Shown: positions 11,702 through 24,835 of the stretch, one piece after another
Position numbering within the stretch: position 1 is the first letter of the stretch
How the letters are laid out: every line of letters begins with the position of its first letter
From: Draconibacterium sp.
Lineage (GTDB): Bacteria; Bacteroidota; Bacteroidia; Bacteroidales; Prolixibacteraceae
Length of the DNA stretch: 50,956 bases
Direction of reading: 5' to 3'
Assembly (NCBI GenBank): GCA_011620585.1
Contig: WOYV01000083.1
Location: 1 to 50,956 of the forward strand
Notes under the pieces: generated by a model
Told to the model about the DNA's origin: nothing
Database searches by the model: none
The model's input: the letters and a program-made list of their open reading frames with translations, nothing else
Translations under genes and position numbers: made by a program

Positions 11702-13063
11702 CTACGGCCCGACAAAAGTGGTTTGATAAGTTTCTATCAGTTTATTTTCACTAAAGATTCCGAATTTTACCCCGGTTTTGTCGCTCCTGATTTCGTTTTT
11801 AGGAATATACAAAATGAAAGTCGATTCGAACTTCGACTGATCCATGATCGTCATATCGCTGCTGGCCATTTGTATTTTCCCGTTGTGCGAAAGAACTCTT
11901 AATTCCAGGGGTATTTCATCGTGAGTTTTGTTTACGATTTTGATGTTGTAGACATTCGAAAAAGTCGAATCCTGTTCCTGGTAGATCAAGCCCGGAGTGC
12001 GTAAAATAGTCGTTTCAATTTCGGGACGGGTTACCAGGGTGTAGATAAAGAATGAAAAAATAATCAGCAACACCACCGAGTAGGCACGGTTGCGGGCATT
12101 CCAAACTTTTGAATGGCCTCCTTTGATCGAAGCTTCAGAAGCGTATCGAATTAAACCTGGCGCTTTTCCAACTGATTTCATTACATGGTTACACTGGTCG
12201 ATACAAGCGGTGCAGTTCACACATTCAAGCTGGGTTCCGTTTCGGATATCTATTCCGGTTGGGCAAACCGAAAGGCATTGTTTGCAGTCGATACAATCGC
12301 CTTTGCTTTTTGGCCCACGCGGTTCGCCCCTTACATAATCGTAGGCTACCATAATTGTTTTCGAATCGAGCAGAACCCCCTGCATCCTTCCGTACGGACA
12401 AACCATGGTGCAAATCTGTTCGCGGAAAAACGAATATATCCAGTAAAATACTGCCGATACTAAAATCATGGCTAAAAACCCGGAGAAATGATCTCTAACT
12501 GGCTCTTGTATCCTTGTCAACCAACGGTCGCTGCCGATAAACCACATCAGGAAAACATTGGTCATTGCCATGGCAATCAGTATGAAAATACTGTGTTTTA
12601 GTGTTTTCTTGAATATTTTATTCGCGGTCCACGGACTGTTATCCAGTTTAAGCCGTTCGCGGTAGTCTCCTTCTACCAGGTATTCTATTCGCCTGAAAAC
12701 CATTTCGAGAAAAATGGTCTGCGGACAGGTCCAGCCACACCATAAACGCCCGAAAGTAACCGTAAACAATACCACAAATAGCACGAACGATAACATCAGT
12801 AATGCCAGGATAAAGGTGTCCTGTGCCCAGAATATGGCTCCGAAAATAATAAATTTACGGCTTGCAATATCAATTAGAATCAGTGGGTTCCCGTTTATAC
12901 GGATAAAGGGAACAGCCACCAGAAAAGCTAATAACAAGTAGGCTACGATCGAACGGCGTGCCCACCATTTCCCTGTTGGTTTTTTTGCATACACCCATTT
13001 TCTTCCTCCACGTTCGTTCAGGTTGATGGGCTTATCCCTGAATGTCAAATGCTGTCCTGGCAT
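11702..13063 (-). CDS. ccoG: Cytochrome c oxidase accessory protein CcoG
   Basis: 453 residues. Helices with GRLWCGWTCPQTIF (about residue 105-118) carry the conserved membrane Cys pair. A di-cluster ferredoxin part follows, with CIDCKQCLSVCP and CVNCTACIDQCN. The C-terminus is an Ig-like periplasmic domain. CcoG/RdxA acts as a Cu(II) reductase in cbb3 assembly (family knowledge). A hairpin with a T-run separates it from ccoP upstream. Confidence 0.93.
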   Translation of the reverse strand: MPGQHLTFRDKPINLNERGGRKWVYAKKPTGKWWARRSIVAYLLLAFLVAVPFIRINGNPLILIDIASRKFIIFGAIFWAQDTFILALLMLSFVLFVVLFTVTFGRLWCGWTCPQTIFLEMVFRRIEYLVEGDYRERLKLDNSPWTANKIFKKTLKHSIFILIAMAMTNVFLMWFIGSDRWLTRIQEPVRDHFSGFLAMILVSAVFYWIYSFFREQICTMVCPYGRMQGVLLDSKTIMVAYDYVRGEPRGPKSKGDCIDCKQCLSVCPTGIDIRNGTQLECVNCTACIDQCNHVMKSVGKAPGLIRYASEASIKGGHSKVWNARNRAYSVVLLIIFSFFIYTLVTRPEIETTILRTPGLIYQEQDSTFSNVYNIKIVNKTHDEIPLELRVLSHNGKIQMASSDMTIMDQSKFESTFILYIPKNEIRSDKTGVKFGIFSENKLIETYQTTFVGP

Positions 13064-13080: not shown

Positions 13081-13109
13081 AAAAAAGGGGGAAGATTCCC
13101 CGCTTTTTT
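13081..13109 (-). terminator. Terminator/attenuator between ccoP and ccoG
   Basis: On the minus strand GGGGA-ATCT-TCCCC is flanked by A6 on the 5' side and T6 on the 3' side (13081-13109), overlapping the ccoP stop codon. It is a strong intrinsic terminator that would lower expression of ccoG, ccoH and the genes after them relative to the oxidase subunits. Confidence 0.7.
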
Positions 13110-13692
13110 ATGAATTACTTTCTTCTTTACATTCTTCTCCCTGCGGAGCTTTGGCATTTGCCGGATTGGTTCCGACCAAACTCAAAACATAACTTGCCAC
13201 TTTCTGGATTTTTTCGTCGCTCAACTGGCTCTTAAAAGGTGTCATCCCTTTTGCCGGAACACCGTTTTTGACCACGTTGAATACATCTTTGATGTTGCAC
13301 CCGTTTATCCAGTAATTATCGGTTAAGTTTGGCCCAATCGCATTTCCTTCACCGTTTAATCCGTGGCAGGCCATGCAACCCATTGCGGTGAAAACTTCTT
13401 TCCCTTCGGTTAGGGCAGCTTCATCTGTAAACGCTACCATATCATCTGTCGAGAGCGCGGTAATATGGTATTTCTCATCGTGTTGCGCCGATTTTTTGAC
13501 GTATTCAGCATCCTGGTGGTCGCCTTGTTTTAGCCAAAAAAAGTATGCCCCGTAAAGAATCGACCACCCAATGGTTATATAAAAAAGCAACATGATCCAT
13601 CGTGGAGGCGGATTATCCAACTCCTTGATCCCGTCGTATTCGTGATCCGTGACCGGATCGTGTTCCGTTACTTTGTTTTTTTCTTCTGACAT
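13108..13692 (-). CDS. ccoP: cbb3 oxidase subunit III, mono-haem CcoP
   Basis: 194 residues. The N-terminal soluble segment is followed by one helix (about 31-55, starting PPPRWIMLLFY, the typical CcoP anchor). There is a single class I cytochrome c domain with CMACH (Cys106, Cys109, His110) and the distal Met in AKGMTPF. Classical CcoP has two CxxCH motifs; this one has one, while the CcoNO fusion has an extra one. It passes electrons to CcoO/CcoN. Confidence 0.9.
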   Translation of the reverse strand: MSEEKNKVTEHDPVTDHEYDGIKELDNPPPRWIMLLFYITIGWSILYGAYFFWLKQGDHQDAEYVKKSAQHDEKYHITALSTDDMVAFTDEAALTEGKEVFTAMGCMACHGLNGEGNAIGPNLTDNYWINGCNIKDVFNVVKNGVPAKGMTPFKSQLSDEKIQKVASYVLSLVGTNPANAKAPQGEECKEESNS

Positions 13693-13703: not shown

Positions 13704-13898
13704 TTAATTTGAAGTTATGATGTCGTCGGATTCTCCATCCGTCAGTATCGAATTTTTGATGTCTTCCATATCGCTGTTTTTTAAACGCATGGTACGGATA
13801 AAAAGAACAATAAAGAGGATCACAAAAATGAGCAATCCAATAATGTAAAACACCTGGATTCCTTCTATACTGGTTAACAGATCACTTACTATTTTCAT
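13704..13898 (-). CDS. ccoQ: CcoQ-like small membrane subunit
   Basis: 64 residues, one helix (about 15-36) followed by the charged tail RTMRLKNSDMEDIKN. It overlaps the end of ccoNO by 17 bases and precedes ccoP by 11, the position of ccoQ/cbb3 subunit IV. Similarity in this small subunit is weak, so the call rests mostly on place and topology. Confidence 0.7.
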   Translation of the reverse strand: MKIVSDLLTSIEGIQVFYIIGLLIFVILFIVLFIRTMRLKNSDMEDIKNSILTDGESDDIITSN

Positions 13899-16365
13899 TT
13901 GGAAGTTCAGTTAATACATAGCTTGCAAGCTGTGTAATTTGTTTCTCGGAGAACATGGTTTTGTATGGAACCATACCTTTTGCGATGTTTCCTTCCGAAA
14001 TGGAATGGAACACTTGTGAAGGTGAGTTTCCTTTTATCCATTCATTATCAACCAGGTTTGGAAATGCAGGTGGAATACCGGTTCCATCAGCTTTATGGCA
14101 TACCACGCAAGTGGCCTGGAAGAGTTTTTTCCCAGCTGCCAAATCTTCTGCATTAGTAAGCAAAGTAACTTGTTTCAACCCGGTTGTGTCGCTTACGGTT
14201 GTCGTCGGTTCGGCTGCTGTGGCATCAGCAGGATCAACTCCGGCCGAAATATCACGACCCAGTTTGTGCATGTAGGCAATCAATGCCACCATCTGTTTTT
14301 GTGGCTCAATTTCAATACCTGCAGTTTTCAGTTCATCCGAAATTTTTTGTCCCTGTGCCATCAGGTCGTCCACCGCTTTCGCATCATATCCGTCTTCATA
14401 CGGAACATCCAGCGTTTGCATGGCACGAATTTTCTTTGGTGTCTGGCCCAGGTTTACATTTTTAACTGCAAGCCATGCGTAATTTGGCATGATCGATTGT
14501 TCGTTCATTTTTTGCGGATCCATAAAATGGTTGTAATGCCAGGCCGCATTTTTATACATTGGCCCGCCAATAACTCCGGCCCGGCCCAAATCCGGCCCTG
14601 TCCTGCGCGAACCCCACTGGAAAGGATGGTCGTAAACAAATTCGCCAATTTTGGAATATTCTCCATAACGATCAGTTTCCCAGCGGAATGGACGAACCAT
14701 CTGTGAGTGGCAGAGATAGCATCCTTCTGAAATATAAATATCGCGACCTTCCAACTCAAGCGGAGTGTAAGGAGTAACCGTTTCGATGGTGGGTACATTC
14801 GATTTGATAAAGATCATCGGAATAATCTCGACCGCTCCGCCAATTGACAGTGCAATGAAAACCAGGATCGAGAAGCGAACAGCTTTTCTTTCCAGCCAAC
14901 GGTGAATAGTTTCAGCCACCGCGTTACGTTTGCCTTCGAGAACCAGCGCAGGCGCTTCCGAAGCCTCGTTATTTACAAAACTTCCGGCTCCCATGGTTTT
15001 AGCAAGGTTGAACAGCATTATTACAAATCCACCAAGAAATAATACTCCACTAAATACTCTCACAGTGTACATTGGTACAATTTGGGTGAGTGTTTCAAGG
15101 AAATTCGGGTAAGCCAGAAATCCTTCAGGAGTATATTCGCGCCACATCAACCATTGTGTTACAGCAGCCCAGTAAAGTGGAATAGCGTAAACCAGGATAG
15201 CTAAAGTCGACATCCAGAAGTGGATATTGGCAAGTTTTTCAGAGAATAATTTTGTTTTGAAAAGTTGTGGAACCAACCAGTATAACATACCGAATACGAT
15301 ACCTCCGTTCCAGCCCATACCGCCAATGTGAACGTGGGCAATGGTCCAATCGGTAAAGTGGGTAATCTGGTTGATCGATTTCACCGACATCATCGGGCCT
15401 TCGAAGGTAGACATACCATAAGCAGTAACCGCAACAACCAGGAATTTCAAGGAGGCGCTGTCGCGCACTCTGTCCCAGGCTCCCCGAAGTGTCAGCAAGC
15501 CATTGATCATACCTCCCCAGCTTGGCGCAATCAGCATGATCGAAAAAGTAACGCCGAGCGCTTGTGCCCATTCAGGCAATGCCTGGTACAACAAATGGTG
15601 AGGACCGGCCCACATATAAAGGAAAATGAGCGACCAAAAGTGAATGATCGAAAGTTTGTATGAATAAATAGGCCGGTTTGCCGCTTTTGGCAGGTAATAG
15701 TACATCAAACCCAGGAAGGGTGTAGTAAGAAAAAATGCCACTGCATTGTGACCGTACCACCATTGTACCACAGCATCTTGTGCCCCGGCATAAATTGAAT
15801 AGCTTTTGAAAAGCGAAATCGGCAATTCAAAAGAATTGACCACGTGCAAAATGGCAATACCCAGAAAAGTGGCCAGGTACCACCAAATGGCGGCATAAAT
15901 ATGTTGCACCCGGCGAACTATCAAAGTCCCGATCATGTTCCAGCCAAAAGCTATCCAAACCAAAGCAAGAAGGATATCAATAGGCCATTCCAACTCGGCG
16001 TATTCTTTCCCGGTTGTTAATCCGGCCAGCAACGAAACGGCTGCCAATACAATAACGGTTTGCCAGCCCCAGAAATGGAACTTGCTCAATCTATCGCTGA
16101 ACATACGGGTTTTTAACAGTTTTTGCATCGAGTAGTAAACCCCGGCAAAAATGGCATTCCCCACAAAAGCAAAAATAATGGCGTTGGTGTGCACGGGACG
16201 AACCCTTCCGAATGTAGTAAACTCCAATCCGAAGTTAAATACAGGGAAAGCCAGCTGCAGCGCCGCCACTAGTCCTACAAGGATGCCGACAACACCCCAA
16301 ACCATCGTAGCCAGAATAAACAGCTTGACGATTTTATTGTCGTAATAGAATTTTTGATTTTCCAT
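13882..16365 (-). CDS. ccoNO: Fused cbb3 oxidase subunits I and II with an added cytochrome c domain
   Basis: 827 residues in three parts. Residues 1-~465 are CcoN, with His59 (low-spin haem b), His206, His256 and His257 (CuB), and His344 and His346 (haems). Residues ~495-700 are CcoO, with a membrane anchor, CYLCH (549-553) and the family motif QMVRPFRWETDRYGEYS. Residues ~735-827 are a further class I cytochrome c domain with CVVCH (753-757) and Met in KGMVPY. It pumps protons and reduces oxygen at low tension. The third part resembles the domain missing from the mono-haem CcoP next door. Confidence 0.95.
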   Translation of the reverse strand: MENQKFYYDNKIVKLFILATMVWGVVGILVGLVAALQLAFPVFNFGLEFTTFGRVRPVHTNAIIFAFVGNAIFAGVYYSMQKLLKTRMFSDRLSKFHFWGWQTVIVLAAVSLLAGLTTGKEYAELEWPIDILLALVWIAFGWNMIGTLIVRRVQHIYAAIWWYLATFLGIAILHVVNSFELPISLFKSYSIYAGAQDAVVQWWYGHNAVAFFLTTPFLGLMYYYLPKAANRPIYSYKLSIIHFWSLIFLYMWAGPHHLLYQALPEWAQALGVTFSIMLIAPSWGGMINGLLTLRGAWDRVRDSASLKFLVVAVTAYGMSTFEGPMMSVKSINQITHFTDWTIAHVHIGGMGWNGGIVFGMLYWLVPQLFKTKLFSEKLANIHFWMSTLAILVYAIPLYWAAVTQWLMWREYTPEGFLAYPNFLETLTQIVPMYTVRVFSGVLFLGGFVIMLFNLAKTMGAGSFVNNEASEAPALVLEGKRNAVAETIHRWLERKAVRFSILVFIALSIGGAVEIIPMIFIKSNVPTIETVTPYTPLELEGRDIYISEGCYLCHSQMVRPFRWETDRYGEYSKIGEFVYDHPFQWGSRRTGPDLGRAGVIGGPMYKNAAWHYNHFMDPQKMNEQSIMPNYAWLAVKNVNLGQTPKKIRAMQTLDVPYEDGYDAKAVDDLMAQGQKISDELKTAGIEIEPQKQMVALIAYMHKLGRDISAGVDPADATAAEPTTTVSDTTGLKQVTLLTNAEDLAAGKKLFQATCVVCHKADGTGIPPAFPNLVDNEWIKGNSPSQVFHSISEGNIAKGMVPYKTMFSEKQITQLASYVLTELPNENSK

Positions 16366-16377
16366 AGTATGGATAAG

Positions 16378-16560
16378 TTATGTCGTTTTTTTTTCTTCGT
16401 TATTGATCTCAGTATCGGTATTATCATCGTCGAATAATATCCTGATCGAGGGAGTTTCGTTATCGTCGAATTGTCCGCTTTTTACCGCCCAGATAAAGGC
16501 CCCCAAAAAAATGAGAGCGGCCAGTAAACTTACTCCTATCAACAGGTAAAAGATATTCAT
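16378..16560 (-). CDS. ccoS: cbb3 assembly protein CcoS
   Basis: 60 residues. The start MNIFYLLIGVSLLAALIFL gives one helix, followed by FIWAVKSGQFDD, the CcoS hallmark (W-x3-SGQFDD), and an acidic tail. It lies 12 bases ahead of ccoNO. CcoS is needed to insert cofactors into CcoN (family knowledge). Confidence 0.93.
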   Translation of the reverse strand: MNIFYLLIGVSLLAALIFLGAFIWAVKSGQFDDNETPSIRILFDDDNTDTEINNEEKKTT

Positions 16561-16603
16561 CTTATTAGAATTGTTTATTCAACAATGTATAATACGGAAC
16601 TCG

Positions 16604-16619
16604 TCCCGATACATCGGGA
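16604..16619. repeat. TCCCGAT-AC-ATCGGGA palindrome ahead of ccoS
   Basis: Seven-base arms 16604-16610 and 16613-16619 lie in the 75-bp gap between the cytochrome c gene and ccoS. A closely related palindrome occurs at 50831-50848. It could be an operator or an mRNA hairpin; its tail has no T-run. Confidence 0.5.
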
Positions 16620-16635
16620 TTTGTTTCATCCGATC

Positions 16636-17514
16636 TTATTCTTTTCCAAGTTTCCAGATCTTGAAAATTTGAAATATTACATAGCCAATGGCCAGCCAGG
16701 CTGCACCAACTGCGCCCAGGTACGATAACAATAACCAGGTTTGAACATTGTCGTTGGTCGACCATAAAACCTGTTTGCGTATCAGTTTGGGAGTTGGTTT
16801 TGGCTGACCAACTTTGGCCGCATCCAGCACGACTTTGTCGGTTATAAATCCTTCGCCAAGTTCAACTACAATATTTACCAAACCATTTTCATCTCCGATC
16901 AGCGTTTCAGGAATTACATATTCTCCACGTCCGTCGGCATTTGTCAGTATATCGCCTATCGGGATATTGCCAAAAGCTTTTTTTGCTGAAATTTTCACCT
17001 CAGTATCCGGAAGTTTTATGTAAGCCCCGTTTTTATCTTCCACTTCGGCAAAAACCTCCACTCTCTTTTCCACTTCGTTTACCGATGCCAGCAACTTGGC
17101 TTTCTTTGGCGGGGCTTCAACCAATAATGGCCGGTTGGCTTTATTAAAATTTCTGATAAAGTTGATCAGGCGCCAACGGTCGTCAACCGAAATCGTTTTT
17201 TCGAACTGGGGCATTCCTCCACGTCCGTGCGAGATTTTATAAAATAATTCTCCATCGGTGTTATTCTGCATGAGGTCGGAAATCAAATCCGGCGGAGGCG
17301 GAACCAAAGGCAACCCATTGTGTTTCCCCGGATCGCCATGACACGATTTACAATTCACCAGGTACAGGTTTTTCCCTGCTTTCACGTTTTCGAGCGTGTA
17401 CCCCGAAGGATTCTTTATATTCTTCTGGTCATCGGGGACCAACCACTCCTGAGACATTCCCTGTTTGGCTACAAACAGGGCAAGCGTTAGTAACAAATAT
17501 ATTTTCCTCATCAT
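16636..17514 (-). CDS. Membrane-anchored class I cytochrome c of an NrfD-type reductase
   Basis: 292 residues. A signal peptide covers about 1-21 (cut after GMSQ). The cytochrome c domain has CKSCH (Cys55, Cys58, His59) and the likely Met ligand in GRGGMPQF. A middle beta-rich domain (about 140-235) looks like a carboxypeptidase-regulatory/Ig fold. One C-terminal helix (about 258-285) anchors it. It overlaps the NrfD-like gene by 4 bases, so the two are translationally coupled. It should accept electrons from the Fe-S/NrfD pair and pass them to a cytochrome c oxidase, possibly the cbb3 oxidase encoded just downstream (inference). Confidence 0.8.
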   Translation of the reverse strand: MMRKIYLLLTLALFVAKQGMSQEWLVPDDQKNIKNPSGYTLENVKAGKNLYLVNCKSCHGDPGKHNGLPLVPPPPDLISDLMQNNTDGELFYKISHGRGGMPQFEKTISVDDRWRLINFIRNFNKANRPLLVEAPPKKAKLLASVNEVEKRVEVFAEVEDKNGAYIKLPDTEVKISAKKAFGNIPIGDILTNADGRGEYVIPETLIGDENGLVNIVVELGEGFITDKVVLDAAKVGQPKPTPKLIRKQVLWSTNDNVQTWLLLSYLGAVGAAWLAIGYVIFQIFKIWKLGKE

Positions 17515-18878
17515 GGTGTTTGGTTTTTAGGTTCCGAAATAATTTCACGGTCAATTCCTTTCTCTTCGGCATATTCCCAAATGGTAATTACCGGGAACAT
17601 TTTTGCCAGGACAGTCACAACTAAAAAGGCCGCCATAAAAGAGAACAGCGTAATCATGATCTCGATGCTTGTTGGCGTGTAGTGCTGGAAATTGGCTGGT
17701 ACATTTTGTACCGGAAGAAATGGATGTTCCAAGGTTGGGATTACAATCAGGTACCTTTTAAACCACGACGCGATCAGCACAAAAACTGAAATAATAGTGA
17801 TAGGTACCGGTTTCCTGAAGAATCTGTTCACCATTAGCAGAATAGGAAGAATCAGTCCAAAAAGCTGGGCCGACCAGAAAAGACCGGCATATTTTCCTGT
17901 AAACAGGTTGGTAAGATGGATACTTTCTGCGGTTTTCATTTTGTAGCCCGGCACCCAAAATTCGTTGATATTGAAATACAGGTACACCAAACAAACAAAA
18001 ACAAAGAGTTTCCCCATCATGTTAAAATGATAGTCCTGGAAATAATCCTTTAATCCGTAACGCACACGATAAATGTACATCACTATAATAACCGCAGCTA
18101 CGCCGGCAACAAACGCACCGGCAACGAAATACGGGCCAAAAATGGTGGTATCCCAGCCCGAACGCAAAGTAGCGGCAAATAACCAGGAGGTTACGGTATG
18201 AATTGACAAACCTACCGGGATGATCAAAATCATCAGTACACGCATGGCATGGTAAACCAGTTTGTATTGTTCAGCATTCCCTTTCCAACCCAGGGCAAGT
18301 ACTTTATATATTTTCATTTTCCACTTTGGGATATCGTCCGGGCTTTTGTCCCTCAACAAGGCGAGATCGGGTATTAATGGAAGATAAAACAGCAGAACGG
18401 AAATAGCGAGGTAAGTTATTACAACCGTTACATCCCAAATAATTGGGGATGCAAAACGTCCGTGCAGAAATACGTTCAAAAACCGATCGGGGCGCCCCAT
18501 GTCGTTAATGATGATGATTCCTGCCAGCGCAACGGCGGCAATGGCAACTTGTTCGGCTACCCTCGAAATAGGTTTCGACCAGTTGATTTTTAGCAGGTGA
18601 AGTGTCGAACTGATCAGAAACCCGATCAAACTTACCGCCACAAAAAAAACAAAGTTGGCAATGTACATTCCCCACGAAACATAATCGCGCATGCCGGAAA
18701 CACCCAATCCATCACGGATCTGGATTCCCCAGCCCCACAGGCCCACCAGCGCGAACATAATGAGCAGGAAATACCAGAAATTGGTCAGCTCATCGCGTTT
18801 TACGATCGAACGTGTCAGGTCGAAGGTGATCTTATCCAATAACTTCCGGGATTCTTCCGGTGATTTTATTTTCTCCAT
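17511..18878 (-). CDS. NrfD/PsrC/ActC-type quinol-binding membrane protein
   Basis: 455 residues with about ten hydrophobic helices, longer than eight-helix NrfD and in the range of ActC/PsrC-like subunits. The start includes FWYFLLIMFALVGLWGWG and then YVSWGMYIANFVFFVAVSL, typical of the PF03916 family (G-x2-WGMYI). It would oxidise menaquinol and send electrons to the Fe-S protein encoded 18 bases upstream. No molybdopterin subunit is present in the window. Confidence 0.85.
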   Translation of the reverse strand: MEKIKSPEESRKLLDKITFDLTRSIVKRDELTNFWYFLLIMFALVGLWGWGIQIRDGLGVSGMRDYVSWGMYIANFVFFVAVSLIGFLISSTLHLLKINWSKPISRVAEQVAIAAVALAGIIIINDMGRPDRFLNVFLHGRFASPIIWDVTVVITYLAISVLLFYLPLIPDLALLRDKSPDDIPKWKMKIYKVLALGWKGNAEQYKLVYHAMRVLMILIIPVGLSIHTVTSWLFAATLRSGWDTTIFGPYFVAGAFVAGVAAVIIVMYIYRVRYGLKDYFQDYHFNMMGKLFVFVCLVYLYFNINEFWVPGYKMKTAESIHLTNLFTGKYAGLFWSAQLFGLILPILLMVNRFFRKPVPITIISVFVLIASWFKRYLIVIPTLEHPFLPVQNVPANFQHYTPTSIEIMITLFSFMAAFLVVTVLAKMFPVITIWEYAEEKGIDREIISEPKNQTP

Positions 18879-18896
18879 CGTTTAGAATTTTGTCAG

Positions 18897-19814
18897 TTAT
18901 GAATGATTTTCTTCAATGGTTCCCTGAAATGGAAATGCCCTGTCTTTAGGAGGCAGATAATAAACCCGGGGTTTTGTGCCCAGTTCTTCCATTAAGGTAT
19001 AACCGGCATTTTCTTCAATGATCTTGCTGAAACTGGTCGTTTCGTGTGTAGTTCCATTGGTTACCGCATCTTCGTTCTGATCGCCAAACCAGTACACTCC
19101 ATTCGGGCAGGCCGAAACGCACGAAGGGAGTTTCCCGTCACGTAAGCGGTCGGCGCTGAACAAACATTTCGAGATAGTCCCTTTTTTCTGAGGTACGTTG
19201 GCTTCGATGTTATATACAACCCCTTTGTACTTTTCTGCATCACGTGGTTCGAACCAGTTAAATACCCTTGCAGAATAAGGGCAGGCAGCAATACAAAACC
19301 TGCACCCAATGCAACGTTCGTTATCGATTAGTACAATTCCGTCTTCACGTTTAAAAGTAGCGTTCACCGGACAAACCTTGGTACACGGCGGGTTGTCGCA
19401 ATGCTGACAAGGTTTTGGCATGTAATAAGGCGCCGTGTGATCGGCGTCCTGCATTTGTAACACATTAATGTGATGTTGCTCGGGTCTTAACTGGTGATGG
19501 TTCTGGCATGCTTTCATACACTGGCGTGCATTCCGGCATTTCGATAAATCGATGACCATAACCCACTTTCTTCCTGGCAATCCCTCTCTTCCACGTTTCT
19601 GATTTTCGGTAAGAGTTGGCATATCAGCTGGTTTGAGCGCTGATTTTTGCACTTCCACCAACTCGCCGCTGGAGGTTAACAACTTGATTGTATCGCCACT
19701 TGTTGTTTCTACCCTGCTACACGAACTCAAAATTGTGGAACTTCCCATAACGCCTGCGGCACCAATTGATACCCCAAGTGCTTTCATGAAGTTTCTTCGC
19801 GATTTTTTTTCCAT
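18897..19814 (-). CDS. Tat-exported four-motif ferredoxin of an NrfD-type reductase
   Basis: 305 residues. The N-terminus SRRNFMKAL is a Tat motif and LSSC (Cys32) is a possible lipobox. The Cys motifs are: I, Cys93, Ala96, Cys99, Cys103; II, Cys136, 139, 144, 148; III, Cys168, 171, 174, 178; IV, Cys217, Ser220, Cys232, Cys236. In motifs I and IV the second Cys of the usual pattern is replaced (Ala, Ser). The fold is that of the DmsB/PsrB/ActB ferredoxin family. The loss suggests [3Fe-4S] or altered clusters. First gene of the minus-strand run. Confidence 0.85.
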   Translation of the reverse strand: MEKKSRRNFMKALGVSIGAAGVMGSSTILSSCSRVETTSGDTIKLLTSSGELVEVQKSALKPADMPTLTENQKRGREGLPGRKWVMVIDLSKCRNARQCMKACQNHHQLRPEQHHINVLQMQDADHTAPYYMPKPCQHCDNPPCTKVCPVNATFKREDGIVLIDNERCIGCRFCIAACPYSARVFNWFEPRDAEKYKGVVYNIEANVPQKKGTISKCLFSADRLRDGKLPSCVSACPNGVYWFGDQNEDAVTNGTTHETTSFSKIIEENAGYTLMEELGTKPRVYYLPPKDRAFPFQGTIEENHS

Positions 19815-20491
19815 AAAAAGACAATTTTTTCAACTTAAGTTTGGCAAAGTCTTGTTCCAATACTGACGAATTTATAAAATAAGGCCTAAGCTACAAACAG
19901 TACACTGATAAAATATTTTAAAAAGATAAAAGTGTCTTATATTCTCTAAGTGAATGAGTTACGTCTTCCTTTCCGGGTTTTTAAAATGTTGGGTTTTGAT
20001 AATTTGCTGATTAAAACGTCAATATATAGGGAAGCCCAATTTTTTTCTAATTTTTGTTGAACAAAGTTAAAATCACGGTGTTTAACTATGTTTTTCTGTT
20101 TACGGCGCAGATTCAATTTTGTGATGTAAGTCTCATAAAAATATGCTGTATAACATTTTATAAATAAGATGAGGCAATAAATAATCCATCACAACCACCA
20201 CTTCTTTTCAGAATAATTCTTCCTAAATTAACAAAATCACTTCAAGTTATAAAATCAGGATAATGAGCAAATGGTTATAATTGATTTTGATTTTTTATAA
20301 GATTTTGTTTTCTGAACAAGAAAGATGTATTTTCTCTAAACATTCGTGGCTCTTTTGGGTTTTATTACTGATAAAATACAAAAATATCGTTTATTTAGTC
20401 AGTGTTTATTAGGTTCTTAGCCAAAATAAGTTTTAAAACGGTCTTGATTAGTCAAGTCGGATTAATATGGCTGGCAAAACCGGTTATAAAA
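19815..20491. promoter_or_regulatory. Divergent AT-rich control region between the reductase/cbb3 and caa3 loci
   Basis: About 680 bp without a credible gene, very rich in A and T, between the minus-strand Fe-S gene and the plus-strand SCO gene. It must hold both promoters. I could not identify a clean TAnnTTTG box with a correctly spaced upstream TTTG, nor a convincing FNR/CRP palindrome. Confidence 0.5.
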
Positions 20492-21310
20492 ATGAAAAAT
20501 CAACTGTTTATCAAAATTGTTCTGGTTTTTGTATTGCTGAATGCCTTCTTTTTTGAGGTACAGGCGCAGGCTGTAATTAATCCGGCGGCAACCGATGCAG
20601 ATGTTGAAATTGGCATTGTTGAGCATCTCGACGAATTCCTGCCCGACAGCATTTCATTGACCGATGAAGAAGGCAAGAAGGTTTGGCTCTCAGATCTGAT
20701 CGACAAACCTACCATCATTAATTTTGTTTATTTCCGCTGCCCGGGAATTTGCAGCCCACTTATGGAAGGAGTTGCCGACGTAATGGACCGATCGGATTTG
20801 GTGCCCGGCAAAGATTACCAGGTACTCACCATTAGTTTTGATCCGTCGGAAACTATCGACCTGGGAATTCGGAAAAAAACAAATTATCTGAATTTAATGA
20901 ACAATCAGGCAAAGGTGGATGAAGCTAAAACCGGTTGGAAATTCTTTGTTTCGGATAGTGCGAGCATTGTTCGGGCAACTCATGCTACAGGATTTAAATA
21001 CAAAAAAGCCGGCAACGATTTTCTGCATGCTGCCTCGCTGACAGTTGTAAGTCCCGATGGAAAGATAACGCGTTATTTAAATGGTCTTACTTTTTTACCA
21101 TTTGAATGGAAAATGGCGATCGTGGAAGCTTCAAAAGGTCAATCGGGGCCAACTATCAACAAAGTATTGCGTTTTTGTTTTTCGTATGACCCGGTTGGAC
21201 AAACTTATGTGTTTAACGTTACTAAAATTAGTGCAACACTGATCATATTTTTTGCATTGACATTACTGATTTATTTAATACTAAAACCTAAGAAATCAAA
21301 AGCAATTTAA
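20492..21310 (+). CDS. SCO1/SenC family copper chaperone
   Basis: 272 residues from ATG 20492. A longer frame opens at GTG 20402, but the ATG start puts a normal signal anchor or signal peptide (KNQLFIKIVLVFVLL) at the N-terminus. The CPGIC motif is at Cys83-Cys87 and the conserved His is in NDFLHAASL. A C-terminal membrane helix follows (about 240-262), an unusual addition also known from some Bacteroidota SCO proteins. It supplies Cu for the CuA site of CoxB, encoded four genes downstream. Confidence 0.88.
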   Translation: MKNQLFIKIVLVFVLLNAFFFEVQAQAVINPAATDADVEIGIVEHLDEFLPDSISLTDEEGKKVWLSDLIDKPTIINFVYFRCPGICSPLMEGVADVMDRSDLVPGKDYQVLTISFDPSETIDLGIRKKTNYLNLMNNQAKVDEAKTGWKFFVSDSASIVRATHATGFKYKKAGNDFLHAASLTVVSPDGKITRYLNGLTFLPFEWKMAIVEASKGQSGPTINKVLRFCFSYDPVGQTYVFNVTKISATLIIFFALTLLIYLILKPKKSKAI

Positions 21311-21320
21311 ACAAAACTAT

Positions 21321-22934
21321 ATGCAAACAACAAGCGCTGTAAACGGAGCAAATTATCTAACCTATCAGGGGAAATACAAAGGTTTGCTCGGATGGATTTT
21401 CTCGACAGACCACAAACGAATTGGTCTGCTTTATTTGTATTCAATTGCTACCATGTTTACCACGGGTGTTTTGCTGGGGCTCGCCATGAAATTTGAGTTG
21501 CTCGCACCTGGAAAAACAATTATGGAGGCACAAACTTACAACGCCACTTTTACGGTACACGGTGTAATCATGATATTCATGGTAGTTATACCGGGTCTGC
21601 CGGCTGTTTTCGGAAACATATTGATGCCTATTATGATTGGGGCAAAAGATGTGGCTTTCCCAAAACTTAATTTACTGTCGTGGTGGTTGTATGTGTTAGG
21701 GGTAATGCTGGTTTTGGCAGCCTTACTCTTCGGAAACGGGTCGCCCGATACTGGCTGGACTTTTTATGCACCTTACAGTTTTAAAACCGGGACGAATATG
21801 CTTCCGGCAATTTTTGGAGCTTTCGTGCTTGGATTCTCCTCGATTCTTACCGGCTTAAACTTTTTGGTAACGATTCACCGATTGCGTTGCCCGGGGATGA
21901 AATGGACCAAACTTCCGCTTTTTGTGTGGACATTATACGGAACCGCCTGGATCCAGTTACTGGCCACTCCGGTAGTGGGAATTACCTTGGTTCTTGTAGC
22001 GCTCGAACGCATATTTGGAGTGGGTATTTTTGACCCTGCACTGGGAGGCGATCCAATTTTATACCAACACTTGTTTTGGATCTACTCACATCCGGCAGTG
22101 TATATCATGATTCTTCCGGCAATGGGAGCGATTTCTGAAATAATACCGACCTTTTCGCAAAAACATATTTTTGGTTATAAAGCTATTATTGCGTCAACCA
22201 TGGCAATTGCATTTGTGGGTTACCTGGTTTGGGGACACCACATGTACACCGCCGGAATGAGCGGGCCCGCACAATATTATTTTTCGCTACTAACATTTAT
22301 TGTAGCTATTCCAAGCGCGATCAAGGTTTTTAACTGGATATCAACCATGTATAAGGGATCCATAAACGTACAGACACCCTTTTACTGGGCGATTTCATTC
22401 ATATTTGTTTTTATGATAGGAGGGTTGAGTGGCCTCGTTCTTGGCTCGCTTGCTACCGATGTACACGTGCACGATACTGCCTTCGTTGTTGCCCACTTTC
22501 ACTACATCGTTTTTGGCGGAACAGGTTTTGCTTTTTTTGCAGCCCTACATTACTGGTTTCCAAAAATATTTGGAAGAATGTACGACAAAGCATGGGCAAA
22601 TACCGGATGGCTGGTATTCTTTATCGGGTTCCTCGCACTTTACACCCCGATGTTTTATCTGGGTTTGATGGGGATGCCCCGACGTTATTACGATTACCTC
22701 GAAGAATTTCACAGCGGTAACATTCTCAGCACCTTTGGTTCGTGGGTAATGGTAACCGGTTTTGTAATCATTATTGTAAACCTGATCCGTTCAGCACGAA
22801 AAGGTGCTCCGGCCGAAGCCAATCCATGGCACGGGAAAACACTGGAGTGGACCATTCCATCGCCACCGCCGGTTTTAAACTTCGAAACCGAGCCGGTAAT
22901 CGGGGAGAACGACGGGCCTTACAATTACGAATAA
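21321..22934 (+). CDS. coxA: caa3-type cytochrome c oxidase subunit I, A2 subfamily
   Basis: 537 residues, 12 helices. Ligands: His80 (haem a), His257 with Tyr261 in YSHPAVY (CuB and cross-linked Tyr), His306 and His307 (CuB), His392 (haem a3) and His394 (haem a). The YSHPxV form in place of GHPEV means the proton-channel Glu is replaced by Tyr-Ser, which defines the A2 subfamily (as in Rhodothermus marinus caa3). First oxidase gene after SCO. Confidence 0.95.
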   Translation: MQTTSAVNGANYLTYQGKYKGLLGWIFSTDHKRIGLLYLYSIATMFTTGVLLGLAMKFELLAPGKTIMEAQTYNATFTVHGVIMIFMVVIPGLPAVFGNILMPIMIGAKDVAFPKLNLLSWWLYVLGVMLVLAALLFGNGSPDTGWTFYAPYSFKTGTNMLPAIFGAFVLGFSSILTGLNFLVTIHRLRCPGMKWTKLPLFVWTLYGTAWIQLLATPVVGITLVLVALERIFGVGIFDPALGGDPILYQHLFWIYSHPAVYIMILPAMGAISEIIPTFSQKHIFGYKAIIASTMAIAFVGYLVWGHHMYTAGMSGPAQYYFSLLTFIVAIPSAIKVFNWISTMYKGSINVQTPFYWAISFIFVFMIGGLSGLVLGSLATDVHVHDTAFVVAHFHYIVFGGTGFAFFAALHYWFPKIFGRMYDKAWANTGWLVFFIGFLALYTPMFYLGLMGMPRRYYDYLEEFHSGNILSTFGSWVMVTGFVIIIVNLIRSARKGAPAEANPWHGKTLEWTIPSPPPVLNFETEPVIGENDGPYNYE

Positions 22935-22959
22935 ATAAAACTTTACTAAACAAACTTTT

Positions 22960-23583
22960 ATGGAACATGCACATCATGTAGAACATCCAGACATGTACGA
23001 TGAGGAATCGTCGAAAATAGGCATGTGGTTGTTTATTTTTACTGAACTCCTTCTGTTTGGTGGACTGTTCATTGTTTATTCTATTTACCGGTACTTGAAT
23101 CCCGAAGCCTTTCACCTGGCAGGAGAGGAACTTAACCGAACAATCGGAACCATCAACACGGTTATATTACTGATAAGTAGTATGACAATTGCCATGTCGA
23201 CCACTGCCTTGCGTAAAGGACATAAAAAAGTTGCCATTGCTTTGGTGGTTGTTTCTTTTGTAATCGGATTCGCGTTTTTGGTAAACAAATATTTTGAATG
23301 GGGAGTAAAGTTTTCGCACGGAATCTGGCCGGGTTCGGAGCAAATGCTTGCTGAGATGAGCCAGGGTGAAATACTGTTTTTCGGCTTGTATTTTGTGATG
23401 ACAGGATTGCACGCCTTGCACATTATCATTGGGATGATTATTATGCTCTTTACGATCAGGGGACTTGCAATAGGAAAAGTCACGATAAAGCGCCCTTCGA
23501 TGCTCGATAACTGTGGCTTGTACTGGCACCTTGTCGATCTGATCTGGATTTTCCTTTTCCCTTTGTTTTACTTAATCCATTAA
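22960..23583 (+). CDS. coxC: Cytochrome c oxidase subunit III
   Basis: 207 residues with five hydrophobic helices, the bacterial short form. GMWLFIFTELLLFGGLF near the start carries the conserved Glu of subunit III, and GLHALHIIIGM and the terminal LYWHLVDLIWIFLFPLFYL are family hallmarks. 25 bases after coxA. Confidence 0.93.
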   Translation: MEHAHHVEHPDMYDEESSKIGMWLFIFTELLLFGGLFIVYSIYRYLNPEAFHLAGEELNRTIGTINTVILLISSMTIAMSTTALRKGHKKVAIALVVVSFVIGFAFLVNKYFEWGVKFSHGIWPGSEQMLAEMSQGEILFFGLYFVMTGLHALHIIIGMIIMLFTIRGLAIGKVTIKRPSMLDNCGLYWHLVDLIWIFLFPLFYLIH

Positions 23584-23593
23584 AACCAAAACT

Positions 23594-23884
23594 ATGTCTG
23601 AAGAAAAGCACCAGCACGTTGTACCATACCGGGTTTATGTCATTATACTCATAGCATTGTTAATTCTGACTTTTTCATCGGTCGGGATAACAAGCATCGA
23701 ATTAGGCGAATATACCGTTGCAGCTGCACTTATATTTGCGGTTATAAAGTCTTTCCTGGTACTTACTTATTTCATGCACCTGAAATACGATAAGCTTTAT
23801 ATACGGGTAATGGTAGGCTTTGTATTTGCCCTCTTTTTGGTAGTGATTATCATAACCTTTTTAGATTACCTATTTAGAACCTAA
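23594..23884 (+). CDS. coxD: Cytochrome c oxidase subunit IV
   Basis: 96 residues, three helices, with VIKSFLVLTYFMHLKYD (about residue 49-65), the signature of prokaryotic subunit IV (COX4_pro). It sits between coxC (10 bases) and coxB (3 bases). Confidence 0.9.
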   Translation: MSEEKHQHVVPYRVYVIILIALLILTFSSVGITSIELGEYTVAAALIFAVIKSFLVLTYFMHLKYDKLYIRVMVGFVFALFLVVIIITFLDYLFRT

Positions 23885-23887
23885 GTT

Positions 23888-24835
23888 ATGTACAACGAAG
23901 TAAACAATGCCTCAAATTTTGTACAGGGAGTAGACAAAGCTTTCCTGATCACTATTGGAATATCCTTTTTATTCCTGATCGGGCTTACTGTTGTAATGCT
24001 TGTTTTTGTGTACAAATACAATAAAAAGCGTCATCCAAAAGCAACACAGATCGAAGGAAGTACCCGGCTGGAGATTATCTGGACCGTGATTCCTTTTCTG
24101 ATCACCATGTTCATGTTCTATTATGGGTGGGCAGGATGGCACCCCATGCACAAACCGCCGAAGGACGCTATGGAAATCACAGTATATGGTCGCATGTGGA
24201 ATTTTAGTTTTGAATACGATAATGGCAGACGAACCGATACACTTTTCCTTCCAGTAAATCAACCTGTAAAACTCAACCTTGTGGCCATGGATGTGATTCA
24301 CAGTTTGTATATTCCCGCTTTCAGGGTAAAACAGGATATGGTCCCGGGGAAGAAAGATAATTTCATGTGGTTCGAACCGCAAAGGGAAGGAACTTATGAA
24401 TTGTTTTGTGCTGAATACTGCGGGTTACAACACTCGTATATGTACACTTATGTTGAAGTGATGAAAGACTCCGCTTTTCAAGCCTGGATTACAGATACCG
24501 CCAGTGTGGCAGCCTCGGTGGCTACTGTGGAATCGCCGGCCGCTACCGGAAAGCGGATCATGCAGAATATTGGATGTTTTGCCTGTCATACACTCGATGG
24601 CACCAAATTGGTTGGCCCCAGCTTTAAAGGTATCTGGGAAGAAACCCAAACCGTTACTACCGGAAAAGAGAAAAGACAGGTTAAGATAGATGAAGAATAC
24701 ATCAAACGTTCGATCTATGATCCGAACGCCGATATAGTTGACGGATTTCAGAAAGGGTTGATGTTGTCGTATGAAGGACAGCTTTCCGACGAAGATGTGA
24801 ACCACATTATAGAGTATCTGAAAACTGTAAAATAA
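23888..24835 (+). CDS. coxB: Cytochrome c oxidase subunit II with fused cytochrome c (caa3)
   Basis: 315 residues. There are two N-terminal helices, then a cupredoxin domain with the CuA ligands His138, Cys174, Glu176, Cys178, His182 and Met185. A cytochrome c domain follows, with CFACH (Cys230, Cys233, His234) and the likely Met ligand in KGLMLSYEGQLSDED. The fusion makes this a caa3 oxidase. Placing coxB last in the cluster (I-III-IV-II) is not the commonest order. Confidence 0.95.
   Translation: MYNEVNNASNFVQGVDKAFLITIGISFLFLIGLTVVMLVFVYKYNKKRHPKATQIEGSTRLEIIWTVIPFLITMFMFYYGWAGWHPMHKPPKDAMEITVYGRMWNFSFEYDNGRRTDTLFLPVNQPVKLNLVAMDVIHSLYIPAFRVKQDMVPGKKDNFMWFEPQREGTYELFCAEYCGLQHSYMYTYVEVMKDSAFQAWITDTASVAASVATVESPAATGKRIMQNIGCFACHTLDGTKLVGPSFKGIWEETQTVTTGKEKRQVKIDEEYIKRSIYDPNADIVDGFQKGLMLSYEGQLSDEDVNHIIEYLKTVK

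Follow-up and report, generated by a model that had tools for sequence, protein, structure and literature searches.

A compact NrfD/Fe-S/cytochrome c gene trio ahead of cytochrome oxidase operons in Bacteroidales, a probable menaquinol:cytochrome c oxidoreductase

A gene trio ahead of terminal oxidase operons

The DNA analysed here (the window) is a 50,956-nucleotide stretch of contig WOYV01000083.1 from Draconibacterium sp. (Bacteroidales; assembly GCA_011620585.1). On its minus strand lie three closely packed genes, encoding an Fe-S protein, an NrfD/PsrC-family membrane protein and a monohaem cytochrome c (the trio), which run into a cco operon for a cbb3 oxidase and stand, together with that operon, back to back with a caa3 oxidase operon (Table 1). 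A first-pass annotation, made from the sequence alone, had placed the three genes 75 bp ahead of ccoS on the same strand, with a caa3 oxidase on the other strand and no molybdopterin-like part in the trio. Open reading frames (ORFs), Pfam and NCBIfam agree with the gene assignment, SCO1, CtaD and COX2 matches from position 20402 of the plus strand bear out the second oxidase, and a Pfam scan of the three trio proteins found no molybdopterin domain, Rieske domain or cytochrome b. The Fe-S and NrfD genes are 18 nt apart, and the NrfD and cytochrome c genes overlap by 4 nt. Because the order Fe-S, NrfD, cytochrome c recurs in 104 of 117 distinct loci, the trio is not a chance arrangement, and we conclude that a tight trio ahead of the cco operon is real.

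These loci were collected with a profile built from 12 NrfD sequences, which found at least 582 relatives in genome contigs; the best 80 were used, a choice that favours close kin, and further loci came from a search of the family (60 genomes) and from a sample of the order to which the window belongs (to judge by the names of close kin, Bacteroidales as GTDB defines it; 129 genomes, evenly drawn and at least 95% complete). Of the 133 loci taken (the window, L040-L139 and L149-L180), L059 has no NrfD at 500 bits and 15 repeat an NrfD already present, which leaves 117; the set leaves out L181-L188 (class B) and L189-L196 (from a phylum-wide sample), though L189-L194 hold a trio-class NrfD. An Fe-S gene adjoins NrfD in 108 of the 117, a cytochrome c gene in 112 and both in 105. 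Where the Fe-S gene is not adjacent (nine loci), it was found elsewhere in the genome in all five cases tested (G161, G104, G007, G052 and G028), and the same held for the cytochrome c gene in the three cases tested (G161, G104 and G126) among five such loci; in G161 both genes lie beside CtaD on contig C175. L055, L056 and L058 are examples of an NrfD-cytochrome c pair whose Fe-S gene lies elsewhere, and in L055 and L058 the pair is adjoined by a divergent frame of about 975 amino acids (aa) that resembles FAD-linked oxidases by eye.

Downstream of the trio, on the same strand and within 10 kb, the 117 loci carry a cbb3 operon in 35 cases, a caa3 operon in 29 and both in 4. The others hold ccoI only (4), SCO only (1), nar (3), nap (2), act (1) or no recognised gene (22), or reach the end of their contig within 3 kb (16); such a locus counts as cut off only if no partner had been seen, which biases slightly towards partners. 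Thus 68 of the 101 loci that are not cut off precede oxidase operons, and 5 precede maturation genes only. In the order sample alone (34 loci in 33 genomes) there were 16 oxidase operons, one SCO, one nar, one act, 10 without a recognised gene and 5 cut off. The nap and nar assignments were confirmed by Pfam in one locus each (L054 and L052); the labels ccoI, ccoH, UbiA, III and IV denote matches to window genes whose identity we presume from position. The claim that the trio is wired to cbb3 therefore holds for the window and its close kin, and a cbb3-specific role was rejected because in other relatives the trio precedes caa3, nar or nap genes or stands alone.

Across the 129 genomes of the order sample, NrfD matches were assigned by score, with at least 517 bits defining the trio class and 214-259 bits a protein like ActC, a subunit of alternative complex III (ACIII). 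The trio class occurred in 33 genomes and ActC-like proteins in 21; ccoN was present in 27 (26 above cut-off and one fragment) and CtaD in 37 (15 above the curated cut-off, 22 below it). Among the 45 genomes with ccoN or CtaD, 24 had the trio only, 17 ActC only, 4 both and none neither, while the 84 genomes without either oxidase gene included 5 with the trio and none with ActC. Fisher p-values of 6e-12 over the 129 genomes and of 5e-9 for trio versus ActC within the 45 overstate independence because the sampled genomes are related. PF00033 matched in 15 of the 129 genomes, 7 of which score at least 130 bits; none of the 24 trio-only genomes was found to have an ordinary bc1 cytochrome b, as defined by that score, in a search that did not extend to NapC/NrfH-type quinol dehydrogenases. 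The phylogenetic profile proposed in the first-pass annotation thus places the trio in 28 of the 45 oxidase genomes, 24 of them without ActC or a PF00033 match of at least 130 bits, and the link it reveals is not to cbb3 alone. Locus counts and co-occurrence together support the idea of a stand-alone quinol:cytochrome c reductase tied to oxidases. In a wider sample of the phylum (296 genomes), the trio class was present in at least 7, the source genome included, and the other matches listed were ActC-like except one at 382 bits.

Table 1. Features of the window around the trio, with the evidence for each.
Feature	Position	Strand	Basis
Fe-S subunit	18897-19814	minus	ORF, 305 aa; Fer4_11 78.4 bits (cut-off 26.2)
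Cysteine motif I, C93-R-N-A-R-Q-C99-x3-C103, with Ala in place of the second Cys	19506-19538	minus	Cys pattern
Cysteine motif IV, KC217LFS...C232-x3-C236, with Ser in place of the second Cys	19107-19166	minus	Cys pattern
NrfD/PsrC-family quinol-binding membrane subunit	17511-18878	minus	ORF, 455 aa; PF03916 125.1 bits (cut-off 25.8)
Predicted quinol-site residues Asp126, Ser144, Asp149	18432-18503	minus	Alignment to ActC; model unsure at 130-144
Monohaem cytochrome c subunit	16636-17514	minus	ORF, 292 aa; Cytochrome_CBB3 47.5 bits (cut-off 27)
Haem motif C55KSCH	17338-17352	minus	C55, C58 and H59 invariant in 33 aligned sequences
Met101, likely second haem ligand	17212-17214	minus	Invariant in 33 aligned sequences
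Gap between trio and ccoS, 75 nt	16561-16635	minus	Contains hairpin; T-run on plus strand only (terminator scan)
ccoS	16378-16560	minus	NCBIfam TIGR00847 56.7 bits (cut-off 28.35)
ccoN-ccoO fusion with extra C-terminal monohaem c domain	13882-16365	minus	NCBIfam ccoN 619.8 (cut-off 583.15), ccoO 225.6 (cut-off 200.65)
ccoQ-like	13704-13898	minus	PF05545 25.8 bits, below cut-off 29; no NCBIfam match
Short ccoP, one CxxCH	13108-13692	minus	FixP_N 59.6 bits; TIGR00782 94.1, below cut-off 179.95
ccoG	11702-13063	minus	NCBIfam TIGR02745 410.9 bits (cut-off 316.7)
caa3 operon, divergent from trio: SCO1, CtaD, III, IV, II with haem c	20402-24835	plus	SCO1, CtaD and COX2 by Pfam/NCBIfam; III and IV presumed from position

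Conserved residues and predicted folds of the three subunits

By sequence, the nearest chains to the NrfD subunit are ActC chains (phmmer, E = 9e-53), and its structural model (pLDDT 77.6) has 10 long helices, with loops including 130-144 and 238-247 below 50. In a fold search the four best matches were again ActC chains (TM 0.80-0.81, 28-31% identity), with ActF next. Published quinol-site and channel residues of ACIII, as given in PMC5928083 and PMC8076601, were mapped by phmmer alignment to 6f0k_C and surveyed in 98 NrfD sequences (those of 420-480 aa, some identical pairs included). The predicted quinol-site residues Asp126, Ser144 and Asp149 are conserved in 97, 98 and 98 of these, and correspond to ActC His139, Ser164 and Asp169. 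Because ActC His139 is replaced by Asp126, and ActC Asp253 by Leu233, each in 97 of 98 sequences, the quinol site of the trio, as aligned, is not that of ACIII; its Asp-18-Ser-5-Asp spacing is the same as that of the DsrP1 residues listed in PMC8076601.

Nine channel residues (Arg106, Glu109, Tyr156, Ser160, Asp171, His227, Tyr250, Glu306 and Arg375, equivalent to ActC Arg119, Glu122, Tyr176, Ser180, Asp191, His247, Tyr270, Glu326 and Arg395) are conserved in 94-98 of the 98 sequences. At other channel positions, in ActC numbering, Ser103 is Ser or Thr, Glu338 is Glu or Asp, Arg196 and Asp197 are variable, and His97, Thr100, Arg114, Thr125, Tyr323 and Glu394 are altered. On account of this pattern of conservation relative to ActC, the trio NrfD probably oxidises quinol on the periplasmic side; it might also move protons, in which case the retained channel residues may serve that purpose. 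The related Qrc is electrogenic without pumping, according to PMC6303296.

The Fe-S subunit begins with a twin-arginine motif (SRRNFM) and a lipobox-like Cys32; of 95 N-termini of relatives, 77 contain RRxF[LIM] and 29 a lipobox-like motif. Its nearest chain by sequence is of the NrfC/PsrB type (E = 3e-30). It has 14 cluster cysteines compared with the usual 16, owing to the replacements in motifs I and IV. Both replacements are shared, with C..A..C...C in 101 and KCxxS in 102 of the 108 Fe-S proteins of distinct loci; motif III is complete (CIGC..C...C) in 105 of the 108, and the motif II pattern was matched in 90 of 95. ActB of the same genome has instead lost the second Cys of motif III (CVGTKYC). 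An intact motif IV (KCxxC) was found in the class B, split, ActB and DsrO proteins compared. No cluster cysteine is missing from the DsrO and PsrB proteins compared, with a different motif I spacing in DsrO. In four proteins of the class B or split kind, motif IV is intact and the second Cys position of motif I is taken by another residue, Ala in three of them and Glu in L189. In this protein family, the clusters bound by motifs I and IV are those distant from the quinol. On that footing the two altered clusters would face the cytochrome side in the trio, and they may be [3Fe-4S] or high-potential clusters.

The cytochrome c subunit comprises a signal peptide, a cytochrome c domain (residues ~26-125), a beta-sandwich (~135-236) and a C-terminal helix (259-291), and the last three are resolved in the AlphaFold2 model (pLDDT 89.7). 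It is closest by sequence to c552 (E = 4e-12) and ActE (E = 1.5e-10), and the fold of its cytochrome domain is also like both. A single CxxCH is present in 110 of the 112 cytochrome c proteins found at distinct loci.

Other quinol systems and relation to known complexes

The source assembly (3.94 Mb, 132 contigs) encodes four NrfD proteins matching PF03916: that of the trio, ActC, a PsrC-like protein on contig C80 and one on C20. The first-pass annotation had noted that other Act subunits and bc1 genes were absent; this is true inside the window and fails for the genome. Contig C132 carries a complete act operon, with ActA (6 CxxCH), B, C, D, E and F in order, the names being assigned from homology and size. 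The single PF00033 match (38 bits, 903 aa) lies on C80, where it fuses a cytochrome b N-domain to a region with 11 CxxCH motifs and adjoins a 127-aa Rieske protein (L009:4187-7271). Two working ideas, a genome without ACIII and a genome without any bc-type genes, were accordingly rejected. The annotation had held that a complete bc1 or act operon elsewhere, together with a lack of co-occurrence with cco genes, would speak against a reductase; an act operon is present, yet the reductase idea survives because co-occurrence with oxidases is strong.

Several arrangements seen alongside deserve mention. The C80 pair is an unusual bc-like one, and frames of about 900 aa with weak PF00033 matches also occur in G064, G074, G133, G139, G151 and G153. 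On C20 (L008:2726-10511) an Fe-S and NrfD pair is flanked on either side by a protein with lipoyl/GcvH-like stretches, and a sensor kinase and a response regulator are close by; these labels were given by eye, and NrfD alone was checked. ActB follows the trio within 10 kb in one of the 117 loci, and in G171 (L179:5426-17180) the trio immediately precedes a full ActABCDEF on the same strand. The close kin of the source genome are Maribellus and Draconibacterium, and in G010, of the same genus, trio and cbb3 genes run in one direction and caa3-UbiA-ActA-ActB in the other, as if every oxidase had its own quinol:cytochrome c reductase.

The trio resembles ACIII (ActABCDEF; PDB 6f0k, 6btm and 6lod) in its ActC-like NrfD, in an Fe-S protein that is akin, at 31% identity, to the C-terminal part of ActB, in a monohaem cytochrome domain like ActE (33%), in its place beside oxidases and in its predicted quinol:cytochrome c activity. 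It differs in that the trio-cco cluster has no pentahaem ActA, molybdopterin-like ActB domain, ActD or ActF, in having the Fe-S part as a separate protein with cysteines missing from motifs I and IV rather than III, and in the quinol-site replacements described above. The best NCBIfam matches are DsrO (188.3 bits) and DsrP (133.5 bits) of DsrMKJOP, both below their curated cut-offs (200 and 350); DsrP1 shares the quinol-site spacing (PMC8076601, as far as listed there), whereas the DsrO proteins compared from Chlorobia-type genomes have four cysteines in each of motifs I and IV where the trio has three, and DsrJ is listed in the same source with three haems against one in the trio cytochrome. 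The predicted reaction is that of cytochrome bc1, carried out without a Rieske domain or cytochrome b. As in NrfCD and PsrBC, the Fe-S and NrfD pair would handle quinol at the periplasmic face, but the trio brings its own cytochrome c and accompanies cytochrome c oxidases. The NrfCD/PsrBC type is a dimeric quinone module, reportedly treated by Simon & Kern in 2008. Membership in ACIII or Dsr was rejected on subunits, cysteine pattern, quinol site and the sub-cut-off DsrO and DsrP scores. On the features compared, the trio is thus not a member of ACIII, Dsr or bc1, though it would work like ACIII if our interpretation holds.

A quick tree of 67 NrfD rows, whose very distant outgroup leaves the root and hence the order of origin unsure, placed ActC in one clade (100) and DsrP in another (99), with the trio apart from ActC. 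The window and five cbb3-linked rows from its family form one group (100), the nap-linked rows stand beside caa3-linked ones (98) and nar-linked rows fall together (99); split and class B rows do not form single clades. Partner type mostly follows the tree, because the group labels require 13 changes against a minimum of 11. The description of the trio as a stripped-down ACIII is therefore doubtful: the NrfD fold is ActC-like, but the cysteine pattern of ActB is not shared and NrfD, with the root unsure, falls outside the ActC clade. A second NrfD/Fe-S class (~345-391 bits in the order-sample search) was seen in L059, L182, L184, L185, L187 and L188; at several of them 7-haem and 5-haem cytochromes are encoded together with a b561 and a small cytochrome c, which may form an outer-membrane route. 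L189-L194 often have nearby genes for a barrel-like protein (identified as DUF5777 in L189) and for a small protein of the CxxCH type, and L190 has a NorC/NorB-like pair downstream.

All window neighbours of the trio scanned with Pfam and NCBIfam are cco and caa3 genes. In the cbb3 cluster, ccoN, ccoO, ccoS and ccoG score above their cut-offs and the normally two-haem ccoP below its own; between 13108 and 16365 it looks as if a haem domain had moved from CcoP, where one motif is left, to the CcoN-CcoO fusion. In the caa3 operon, SCO1 scores 33.3 (cut-off 22.8), CtaD 667.7, just below 670.75, and COX2 has one haem motif. Of the 26 loci that have ccoS as the first gene after the trio, 23 show a distance between the two, measured from match ends, of -3 to 16 nt. 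Between 16300 and 20450 there were 10 promoter-like sites (9.7 in shuffles) and 9 terminator-like sites (4.8 in shuffles), with no coding-strand T-run in the gap before ccoS. An Rfam scan of the window (4227 families) gave no match at gathering score, and a tRNA scan gave none.

Proposed role and alternatives

We propose, with a probability of roughly 0.75, that the three proteins of the trio together make up a complete menaquinol:cytochrome c oxidoreductase, which in many relatives takes the place of ACIII or bc1. NrfD would bind menaquinol and oxidise it at the periplasmic face, at the site formed by Asp126, Ser144 and Asp149; the exported Fe-S subunit would pick up the electrons at the surface of NrfD and conduct them along its clusters; and the membrane-anchored monohaem cytochrome c, as part of the same complex, would accept them and hand them to the oxidase next door, probably to CcoO/CcoP here and to the haem c of subunit II where the partner is caa3. 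The trio would thus do for cytochrome c oxidases what bc1 or ACIII does elsewhere, plugged in ahead of cbb3 or caa3 and occasionally of nar or nap. What appears new is this variant of the NrfD/Fe-S quinol module with a cytochrome of its own.

A number of observations weigh against this proposal. No recognised respiratory gene follows the trio in 22 of the 101 readable loci (10 of 29 if the order sample is taken alone), and ccoN and CtaD matches are both missing from 5 of the 33 trio genomes. The source genome has ACIII as well, so that the trio is not needed as the sole link there, and G074, a trio-only genome, carries the cytochrome b/multihaem type. Beyond the relatedness of the sampled genomes and the scope of the quinol dehydrogenase search, the counts are affected by the ActC calls, which come from score bands with order-sample neighbours read in the source genome and G171 only, and by the oxidase models: among 14 named control genomes ccoN matched 2, PF00033 8 and CtaD 8 including E. 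coli, so that quinol oxidases may be counted. The quinol site departs from that of ACIII, and two clusters lack one cysteine each. In six genomes outside the order (L189-L194) a trio-class NrfD has neither ccoN nor CtaD beside it and the third gene is split in two, giving a haem-free ORF (190-330 aa) and a separate cytochrome (~130-145 aa); the outside-order trio genomes with ActC matches listed also have ACIII. We lowered our confidence slightly because these loci show no oxidase link.

Several of the same observations would suit a general quinol dehydrogenase of the NapC/NrfCD kind that feeds a periplasmic cytochrome pool for any reductase, a reading that overlaps our own. It would account for the nar (3), nap (2) and partnerless (22) loci among the 101 and for the trio genomes without oxidase matches, and NrfCD-type modules can function without a catalytic subunit, according to PMC3534657 and PMC6303296. 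We nevertheless think it unlikely, though the most serious competitor, since 68 of the 101 loci lie directly before oxidase operons, 24 of 45 oxidase genomes have the trio without ActC, and the cytochrome ends in a predicted membrane helix. A much less probable view takes the trio for part of an incomplete complex iron-sulfur molybdoenzyme whose catalytic subunit, a molybdopterin or multihaem protein, would have its gene at another site, the adjacency of the trio to cbb3 being incidental. NrfD and Fe-S pairs usually serve such enzymes, and several class B or split relatives have genes for multihaem cytochromes or DUF5777 barrels beside them; against this, 112 of the 117 loci continue into a cytochrome c gene, nar or nap genes follow in only 5, and the oxidase association holds across genomes.

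The presence of a complete act operon and the ActC-like NrfD might also suggest that the trio is a degenerate or redundant ACIII copy, kept as a spare and lacking a separate function in the source genome. This seems highly improbable given that quinol-site and many channel residues are retained in 94-98 of 98 sequences, that the trio occurs without ActC in 24 of the 45 oxidase genomes and that its NrfD stands apart from the ActC clade. Nor do we give much credence to electron flow in the reverse direction, with menaquinone reduced by electrons from a periplasmic cytochrome as in Qrc: the Asp-Ser-Asp pattern is that of DsrP1 and near that of QrcD as listed in PMC8076601, but the trio stands ahead of oxidases and nitrate reductases, which consume electrons.

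If the trio is indeed a menaquinol:cytochrome c oxidoreductase, a bolder view, plausible though we stop just short of favouring it, would make it a third class of complex III and, among ion-translocating quinol:cytochrome c oxidoreductases, the smallest known, with a single NrfD as its only membrane core, two three-Cys clusters tuned to a high-potential haem, and the role of sole link between menaquinone and cytochrome c oxidases in about half (24 of 45 sampled) of the order's oxidase genomes. No description of the trio before oxidases was found in the open-access literature, a weak negative, with most subscription papers outside its scope.

ACIII is regarded as the substitute for bc1 in Bacteroidetes. 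Its genes are reported in 76% of Bacteroidetes species (PMC8076601), and Flavobacterium johnsoniae lacking actA has no cytochrome aa3 activity (PMC8552683). The 24 sampled genomes of the order that have ccoN or CtaD and neither ActC nor an ordinary bc1 cytochrome b all have the trio, which, if our proposal is correct, would supply a simple missing piece in the annotation of their respiratory chains. It would also offer a system of just three genes in which to test what a minimal NrfD-based energy-converting unit consists of, and whether a single NrfD can move ions without ActF and ActD.

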